Shown here: piece after piece, positions 13,377-53,030 of the stretch
Layout: each line of letters opens with the position of its first letter
Position numbering within the stretch: the first letter of the stretch is position 1
Assembly: GCF_000092125.1 (NCBI RefSeq)
Contig: NC_014212.1
Location: 2,066,001-2,130,000, forward strand
Direction: 5' to 3'
Source of the DNA: Allomeiothermus silvanus DSM 9946
GTDB lineage: Bacteria > Deinococcota > Deinococci > Deinococcales > Thermaceae
DNA: 64,000 nucleotides
Notes under the pieces: generated by a model
Database searches by the model: none
Told to the model about the DNA's origin: nothing
The model's input: only the letters and a program-made list of their open reading frames with translations
Made by a program: the position numbers and the translations under genes

Positions 13377-14699
13377 TCAGGGTGCGGACATTAGCCGCAA
13401 GAAGTTCCGGCTGGCCTCGATGCCCTTCTCGTAGTTGACCAGGTCGAACTTCTCGTTGGGCGAGTGCAAATTATCATCGTTGAGACCCATCCCCAAAAGC
13501 ACCACCGGAATTCCTAGCAGTTCCTGGAAATTCGCCACGATGGGGATGCTCCCGCCAGAGCGGGTAAAGACCGGCTTGCGGCCCCAAGCGGCCTCGAGCG
13601 CCTGTGCTGCCTTGCGCATATAGGGCGAGTCCAACTCGGTCACCACGGGTTTCCCGGTGCCGTGGTAGAGAATCTCCATCCGGTAGCCTTCGGGTTTAAT
13701 CCGCTGGAGGTACTCGGTGACGGCTTTTTGGATCGCCTCAGGATCCTGGTCGGGGACCAACCGCATAGAGAACTTGAACCCAGCCTTGGCGGGGATCACC
13801 GTCTTGGAGCCTTCGCCTTGGTACCCCCCCCAGATGCCGTTTACGTCTAGGGTGGGGCGGACCCAGGTACGCTCCAGCGCCCCCCAGCCCGGCTCACCCG
13901 GCAGGGCCTCAGCCCCAATGGAGGATGCGAACGCCGCCGCGTCAAAGTTCAGGCTGGCCAAGCTGGCGCGTTCCTCCTCGGTAAGCTCACGCACCGCATC
14001 GTAGAAACCGGGGACCAAAATGCGCCCGTCTTCGCCCTTGAGCTTGGCGATCATCCAGGCTGCCGCGTGGATGGGGTTAGGTGCAGCCCCGCCGTACACC
14101 CCGGAGTGAAGATCGCGGTTGGCCCCTTCTAAGCGCACTTCCATGTACACCAGCCCGCGCAGACCGTACTCCAGGCTCGGCACCCCAGGGGCGTACATCG
14201 CCCCATCGGAGATGAGCAGCACGTCGGCCCCCAGGCGCTCGGCATTGGAGCGCACAAAGGGCTCGAGGTGCGCACTGGAAATCTCCTCTTCCCCTTCAAT
14301 CACGAACTTGACGTTGACCCCAAGGTCGGGGCCTAGATCTTCGACCGCAGCGATGTGGGCATAGATTTGGCCCTTATCGTCGGATGCCCCCCGGGCGTAG
14401 AGTTTGCCCTCTCGCAAGGTGGGCTCAAAGGGCGGGGTATGCCACAGCTCGAGCGGGTCTGGCGGCTGTACATCGTAGTGGCCGTAGATGAGCACGGTAG
14501 GAGCCTGGGGATCTACGATTCTCTCGGCGTAGACGATGGGGTGGCCGGGGGTGGCGACCACCTCAACTTGAAACCCGAGTGCGGAAAGCTTGGCCTCAAG
14601 CCAGCGAGCGGCCCGGGCAACGTCTTCTTTATGGTCAGGGTTAGCCGAAACCGAGGGGATCCTTAAAAACTCGATAAGCGCGTCTAAGTGCTTGTTCAC
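13377..14699 (-). CDS. M20-family dipeptidase / carboxypeptidase-like metallopeptidase
   Basis: 440 aa. GHYDVQPPDP (metal His and Asp), RGASDDKGQ (bridging Asp), IEGEEEISS (catalytic Glu-Glu) and GGSIPIV plus ...NLHSPNE near the C-terminus follow the carnosinase-like M20 dipeptidase family. It hydrolyses di- or short peptides in the cytoplasm with two zinc ions. The GTG at 14699 has TATAAT (14707-14712) 7 nt upstream, a leaderless promoter. It lies 43 nt after the HspR-like gene, which is on the same strand, but the promoter lets it be expressed on its own. Confidence 0.92.
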   Translation of the reverse strand: MNKHLDALIEFLRIPSVSANPDHKEDVARAARWLEAKLSALGFQVEVVATPGHPIVYAERIVDPQAPTVLIYGHYDVQPPDPLELWHTPPFEPTLREGKLYARGASDDKGQIYAHIAAVEDLGPDLGVNVKFVIEGEEEISSAHLEPFVRSNAERLGADVLLISDGAMYAPGVPSLEYGLRGLVYMEVRLEGANRDLHSGVYGGAAPNPIHAAAWMIAKLKGEDGRILVPGFYDAVRELTEEERASLASLNFDAAAFASSIGAEALPGEPGWGALERTWVRPTLDVNGIWGGYQGEGSKTVIPAKAGFKFSMRLVPDQDPEAIQKAVTEYLQRIKPEGYRMEILYHGTGKPVVTELDSPYMRKAAQALEAAWGRKPVFTRSGGSIPIVANFQELLGIPVVLLGMGLNDDNLHSPNEKFDLVNYEKGIEASRNFLRLMSAP

Positions 14700-14742: not shown

Positions 14743-15471
14743 CTATGCGCTTTCCGTCTTGGGTTCGGATTTTTGCGGTTCGTTCAGCTCGCGCAGCAAC
14801 GCCAAGCGCAGCCGGGCTATTTCACTTTCAAGCCTGGCCTGTTGGGCATCGAGTTCGTCGCGCAGCTTGATGATCTCCTCCACCCCGGCCAGGTTGACGC
14901 CTAATTCTTGGGTCAGGCGGCGAATCTCCCGCAACTTCTCTAGATCCCGCTCTGAGTAAAGACGGGTTTTCCCTGAGGAGCGCTTGGGCTGAATCAGCCC
15001 CTTCCGCTCGTACAGACGTAGGGTCTGCGGGTGCATGTCTACCAACTCAGCGGCCACAGAGATCACGTAGACCGGGCGGTCCTTGGCGGCGGACGGTTTC
15101 TTAGCCGGGGGTTCGGGCTCGCGCGGGGCGGGCAGGGCCGGAGGAGACTTGAGCGCCTCGAGCTTCTCCCCCAGCTCGGCCTTGAGCCGCAAGACCTCCT
15201 CACGGAAGCGGGTTTCGAGGGCGTATAGCTCGTCGCGGAGTTTAATGATCTCCTCAACCCCTGCCAGATTCACCCCAAGCTCCTGGGTCAACCGGCGAAT
15301 CTCTTTGAGCTTTTCCACATCCCGCTCGGAGTATAGACGGGTCTTGCCGGAGGAACGCTTGGGAGCTACCAACCCTTTGCGCTCATATAAACGCAGGGTC
15401 TGCGGATGCATATCCACCAGCTCCGCAGCCACCGAGATGATATACACCGGACGGTCCTTCTCCCCTGCCAT
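14743..15471 (-). CDS. Fused tandem HspR-type MerR regulator
   Basis: 242 aa holding two full MerR/HspR DNA-binding domains in one chain. Domain 1 is residues 5-82 and domain 2 is residues 130-207. I count 73 of 78 positions identical; the differences are I/V, V/I, A/Q, V/L and K/R. The linker (about 83-129) is a coiled-coil-like stretch followed by Pro/Ala-rich sequence. Each domain has the HspR box [14 protein letters not shown]. HspR represses heat-shock genes by binding HAIR sites as an ordinary dimer of single-domain chains, so this copy is unusual. The ATG at 15471 fits best; TATACT (15481-15486) lies 9 nt upstream. No HAIR box was found in its own leader. Confidence 0.9.
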
Positions 15472-15543
15472 ATCACAACGAGTATACAAAAGTTTATACG
15501 GGGGCAATCAATCAGCTTACACAATCAAAAGAATAAGGCTTGG

Positions 15544-52927: not shown

Positions 52928-53014
52928 ATGCACAACGAGGCGCCAGGAGCCATGGAGCCCAGCCACGCTAAGCCCGCCAGGGGTGTAGGTACAGATGAGA
53001 TAGATCAGTCTTGA
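52928..53014 (+). CDS. Possible small leaderless ORF
   Basis: 28 codons: MHNEAPGAMEPSHAKPARG..., hydrophilic. TACAAT (52916-52921) ends 6 nt before the ATG, the spacing seen at other starts here. There is no -35 that I trust, and a 28-codon frame can occur by chance. Confidence 0.25.
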   Translation: MHNEAPGAMEPSHAKPARGVGTDEIDQS

Positions 53015-53030
53015 GTGAAGTATGCTCAAC
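53010..53030. promoter_or_regulatory. HAIR-like HspR binding site upstream of lon
   Basis: CTTGAGT-N7-GCTCAAC, against the HAIR consensus CTTGAGT-N7-ACTCAAG: 12 of 14 fixed positions match. It ends 17 bp before the lon -10 box and so covers the -35 region. The window also encodes an HspR-type protein. Confidence 0.6.

Follow-up and report, generated by a model that had tools for sequence, protein, structure and literature searches.

In Streptomyces, DnaK is the co-repressor of HspR. Single-domain HspR proteins (NCBIfam model NF047375; Streptomyces, Helicobacter, and Trueperaceae) carry one HspR domain per chain and go with HAIR-type operators before heat-shock genes. GlnR and TnrA, which are single-domain MerR-type nitrogen regulators with other operators, dimerize without the classic MerR coiled coil. 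In Deinococcus radiodurans, chaperone and protease genes are repressed by HspR (DR_0934) through HAIR sites (PMC6888292), and Helicobacter HspR binds its own promoter and covers >70 bp via several dimers (PMC6102357). Proteins with two HspR domains in one chain are described by a second NCBIfam model, NF047377 (heat shock protein transcriptional repressor HspR, fused homodimer type).

The window analyzed here is a 64,000-nt stretch of Allomeiothermus silvanus DSM 9946 (NC_014212.1, positions 2,066,001 to 2,130,000). The features of its hspR locus and of one operator are listed in Table 1. The protein has the two-domain architecture of the NF047377 members and shares with single-domain HspR the domain itself and the HAIR-type operators, with two domains per chain instead of one. 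It matches NF047377 end to end (396.9 bits, 1-214 of 214; curated cut-off 300 bits), each half alone exceeds the cut-off of NF047375 (124.6 and 123.4 bits; cut-off 105 bits), and Pfam detects two MerR domains independently. The two-domain HspR-type chain proposed at 14743-15471 in the initial annotation is confirmed by these matches, but the fusion is not novel, as NCBIfam already names the fused type, and the protein itself therefore adds little. What is new is the concerted evolution of the halves and a retained asymmetry between them that is reversed in A. silvanus; the literature search returned no paper on fused HspR or on homogenized halves with retained asymmetry, and nothing relevant was found on MerR combined with gene conversion. 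The reading to which we give a probability of about 0.75 is that the window protein is a covalent (pseudo-)dimer of HspR that was duplicated in place and whose halves have since been homogenized by gene conversion.

Table 1 Features of the hspR locus and the lon operator in the window
Feature	Positions	Strand	Basis
Fused HspR gene, 242 aa (ATG at 15471, stop codon ending at 14743)	14743..15471	-	ORF and translation; NF047377, 397 bits
N-terminal HspR half, residues 5-82	15226..15459	-	Half alignment, Pfam, NCBIfam
End of first long helix, residues 83-107 (predicted helix 69-107)	15151..15225	-	AlphaFold2 model
Disordered Pro-rich linker with PALPAP motif, residues 108-129	15085..15150	-	pLDDT <50 over 107-131; tail comparison
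C-terminal HspR half, residues 130-207	14851..15084	-	Half alignment, Pfam, NCBIfam
End of second long helix, residues 208-229 (predicted helix 194-229)	14785..14850	-	AlphaFold2 model
Codons GTA GCT, residues 35-36 (Val-Ala), N half; C-type in all sister genomes	15364..15369	-	Half comparison
Codons ATT CAG, residues 160-161 (Ile-Gln), C half; N-type in all sister genomes	14989..14994	-	Half comparison
M20-type peptidase gene, conserved downstream neighbor	13377..14699	-	ORF list and synteny
HAIR-type operator CTTGAGTGAAGTATGCTCAAC before lon (ATG 53170), 140 bp upstream	53010..53030	+	Sequence search and conservation across genomes

Searching related genomes for the same fusion showed that 50 of the 111 genomes of the phylum pass the fused-family cut-off, with fused HspR present across the Thermus/Meiothermus lineages and in Deinobacterium. 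No genome of the Trueperaceae (family f3) passed it, the HspR matches there being single-domain. Among the control genomes, only Thermus composti and Deinobacterium chartae did, the latter of which we take to be a relative of D. radiodurans. No fused HspR match at 1e-40 was obtained in 296 genomes of another phylum (centered on a Nesterenkonia record), and the plasmid search gave no place covering 80% of the query. Many genomes, among them the single-contig G009, G036, and G039, have the same fused frame, and the window fusion is therefore not an assembly fault, as had been stated from the sequence alone. Working labels for the groups are partly inferred and are as follows: g5, Thermus-type; g4, Meiothermus; g2, Calidithermus-type; f4, Marinithermus-type.

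The count of 73 identical residues out of 78 between residues 5-82 and 130-207 was reproduced exactly. The DNA of the halves is 76.9% identical, and the 54 differences fall 11/2/41 on the first, second, and third codon positions; 39 codons differ silently and 5 by a replacement. The dS is saturated or nearly so and the dN is ~0.05, in line with the silent divergence noted earlier. The protein identity between the halves should be read with caution and appears less surprising because the HspR domain is very conserved anyway, single domains of Trueperaceae being identical to the window halves at 62-69 of 78 residues.

A PALPxP-like motif occurs in the linker in families f1, f2, and f4. A similar ALP motif was seen in the tails of other proteins: the C-terminal tail in several single-domain proteins of Trueperaceae, and the second tail in some proteins of f2 and f5. 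In families f1, f3, and f4, hspR has an M20-type peptidase gene close by. The linker and the synteny support a single-domain hspR duplicated head-to-tail in place beside the peptidase gene; one such whole-gene duplication would be the simplest reading, with the linker probably being a former C-terminal tail. Since the linker motif and the peptidase neighbor are common to several families, the fusion is old.

Half-versus-half DNA identity ranged from ~75-77% (window gene, several Meiothermus, f5) up to 100%. The halves were 100% identical in four Thermus-type genes (L027, L028, L029, and L061) and 98.7-99.6% identical in four more genomes, and over this stretch, each genome with identical or near-identical halves was 5-12% different from its closest relative. 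In the sister genome G001, where the halves are 91.5% identical overall, codons 34-77 show 0/132 differences between the halves and 23 to either window half. Identical-codon runs of 44, 61, and 70 gave permutation P values of ≤1e-4, and partial tracts with diverged flanks were seen in L002, L010, and L026. The window gene, whose halves are more diverged in DNA than those of Thermus-type NF047377 members, shows no converted tract (longest identical-codon run 3, P = 0.9993), and as no identical tract is visible, it has probably been unconverted for a long time.

In the tree of halves, both halves of a genome are sisters in most g5, f4, and f2 genomes. In the window genus, all four halves group in a single clade (support 0.92), and the common ancestor of its N and C halves is younger than the split of this genus from the others. 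The AU test rejected a division into one clade of N halves and one of C halves for g5+g3+f4 (deltaL 528, p 1.6e-4), g1+g2 (deltaL 48, p 1.2e-4), and g1+g2+g4 (p 0.0105). For Meiothermus alone, this division was not rejected, and the free tree was no better than the constrained one; in core Meiothermus, N halves do group apart from C halves, and conversion is therefore not universal. Together, the tree tests and the tracts argue for repeated intragenic gene conversion that would have homogenized the halves, most strongly in Thermus and most weakly in Meiothermus. With the common ancestor of the N and C halves lying within the window genus and the N/C division rejected for g1+g2, the silent divergence of the window gene dates from its last conversion rather than from the duplication. 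The earlier statement of an old duplication kept by selection on both halves therefore stands as to the age of the fusion, but the halves have apparently been homogenized repeatedly since.

Purifying selection acting alone on the halves of an old duplication, without conversion, would account for a window gene saturated at silent sites with no converted tract and for the separate clades of core Meiothermus, where it is a possible reading. It is refuted for most lineages by the rejection of N and C clades in Thermus-type plus f4 and in g1+g2, and protein selection cannot yield DNA-identical halves or sharp identical tracts; as a general account, we regard it as most improbable.

Only 15 of the 27 g5 genomes have an intact fused frame, and contigs end inside hspR in G010, G016, and G026. 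In L070 (G020), L071 (G008), and L073 (G032), the start of the fused gene is joined to its C-terminal tail, giving a single-domain ORF, which would be expected if identical halves recombined or if the assembly collapsed. Near-identical halves break, and perhaps collapse, in short-read Thermus-type assemblies, and single-domain HspR calls there need checking. These ORFs would suit an evolution by repeated loss to one domain and fresh re-duplication in place of conversion, but they may themselves be collapsed assemblies, the linker and tails are still orthologous across genomes (PALPxP motif), and the partial tracts with diverged flanks need local conversion, so that such a cycle seems quite unlikely. 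The finding of deletion-like forms where the halves are identical, together with silent sites near saturation in a protein 94% identical between its halves, would also agree with selection for the DNA divergence of the window halves itself, as a guard against recombinational deletion of a half. Neutral drift without conversion predicts the same picture, however, and the sister genome G001 keeps its halves at the high identity given above; we consider selected divergence very unlikely.

The operator is a single 21-bp inverted repeat of the HAIR type, TTGA-N11-TCAA, at clpB, dnaK, and lon. Exact copies were found upstream of clpB in 34/41 cases, of dnaK in 20/39, and of the window-type lon paralogue in 18/40 (0.15-0.20 expected each), and of the spacings 5 to 17, only 11 stands out. 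Operator positions are conserved between genomes. At clpB, hsp20, and groES, a -35-like box shares bases with the left half-site, and a -10-like hexamer follows at a distance of 16-17 bp. The A. silvanus genome has the operator before hsp20, clpB, dnaK, and lon and, with one mismatch, before groES, and groES may be under HspR control too in this species. The sites directly before hsp20 and groES lie outside the window, at L058 (C1:415903) and L040 (C1:595013), respectively. Two further one-mismatch operator-like sites outside ORFs were noted in the same genome at L301 (C1:1043268) and L306 (C1:1622797), with no recognized heat-shock gene downstream within the stretch examined. The lon operator is retained in most Meiothermus-type genomes and mostly missing in Thermus-type genomes. 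Unlike in Helicobacter, where HspR binds its own promoter, no exact TTGA-N11-TCAA was found within 300 bp before hspR in the window genome and the relatives examined.

The same clpB operator is present in Trueperaceae with unfused HspR. The operator was therefore left unchanged by the fusion, with one chain very probably taking the place of one dimer. Fused chains that dimerize half to matching half could alternatively form a tetravalent binder gripping two operators or one long operator, as the initial annotation had also considered; the long, disordered linker would allow this, and Helicobacter HspR spans its >70 bp through several dimers (PMC6102357). None of 120 clpB, dnaK, and lon promoters has two TTGA-N11-TCAA sites, however, and the sites have the same geometry in the unfused Trueperaceae, which makes a tetravalent binder unlikely and the covalent pseudo-dimer, the other form proposed there, the best-fitting reading.

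The AlphaFold2 model (37 sequences; mean pLDDT 75.9, pTM 0.60) has two winged-helix domains, the two long helices of Table 1, and disorder over residues 107-131. In Foldseek, GlnR, TnrA, and classic MerR proteins match one domain at a time, and for a single DNA-binding half, the best matches among solved structures, in sequence as in fold, are GlnR/TnrA; the longer alignments of the whole model had an rmsd of 13-14 Å and were uninformative on the pairing of the halves. Since its operator is the 21-bp site found at clpB of single-domain Trueperaceae, the window protein most likely works as a covalent dimer. A single chain would then cover a single operator, with one half-site read by each half and the two long helices packed together. 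Bound in this way, the chain would block RNA polymerase at low temperature, and heat would free the operator, probably by loss of DnaK binding or of fold. Coiled-coil pairing within the chain is less secure because the closest solved relatives dimerize otherwise, and with a pTM of only 0.60, a dimer of chains is possible instead.

Just past the recognition helix, the halves differ at positions 31-32 of the domain (residues 35-36 and 160-161 of the window protein) in 20/20 fused genes of g1+g2+g4. In 19 of these, the N half has Ile followed by Gln, Arg, Lys, or Glu, and the C half has Val followed by Ala, Thr, Ser, or Lys; relative to other NF047377 members, the window gene has this asymmetry reversed, its N half carrying Val-Ala and its C half Ile-Gln. 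In L010, the two patch codons stand alone as differences in a stretch of 62 otherwise identical codons; the replacement differences between the L008 halves all fall at codons 16-37. The pattern, drawn from one clade and few independent events, looks like conversion with selection sparing the patch, and in the Meiothermus group, selection may thus keep the halves different at this place. It is tempting to extend this to a fusion that let HspR break its two-fold symmetry, conversion and patch-protecting selection together giving a fixed hetero-dimer on unequal half-sites, one of them the -35 box, with the patches exchanged in A. silvanus; we hold this extension to be speculative and rather doubtful. 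Trueperaceae, presumed homodimers, also use unequal half-sites, and unequal operators therefore do not require unequal halves. The clpB operators are symmetric in Thermus-type genomes and family f4 and asymmetric in Meiothermus and the single-domain Trueperaceae. A rule by which symmetric operators go with identical halves and asymmetric ones with diverged halves was rejected, Trueperaceae being asymmetric at clpB and Thermus-type genomes at dnaK.

The phylum offers a natural experiment, in which one repressor, locus, and operator occur in unfused, fused-identical, and fused-different forms. Their comparison could reveal what a covalent dimer gains, such as heat stability or binding at low concentration, and could tell whether the likeness of the two halves of a dimer is maintained by gene conversion or by selection.

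A TATACT hexamer is located at 15481-15486 on the minus strand, 9 nt ahead of the hspR ATG, and its position suggests that the hspR mRNA is leaderless or nearly so; TATACT recurs upstream of hspR in many Meiothermus-type genomes. The upstream regions of Thermus-type hspR (L028, L061, and others) have a short inverted repeat, TTTAGC...GCTAAA, around a purine-rich, Shine-Dalgarno-like stretch just before the start, which could be an RNA thermosensor or due to chance.
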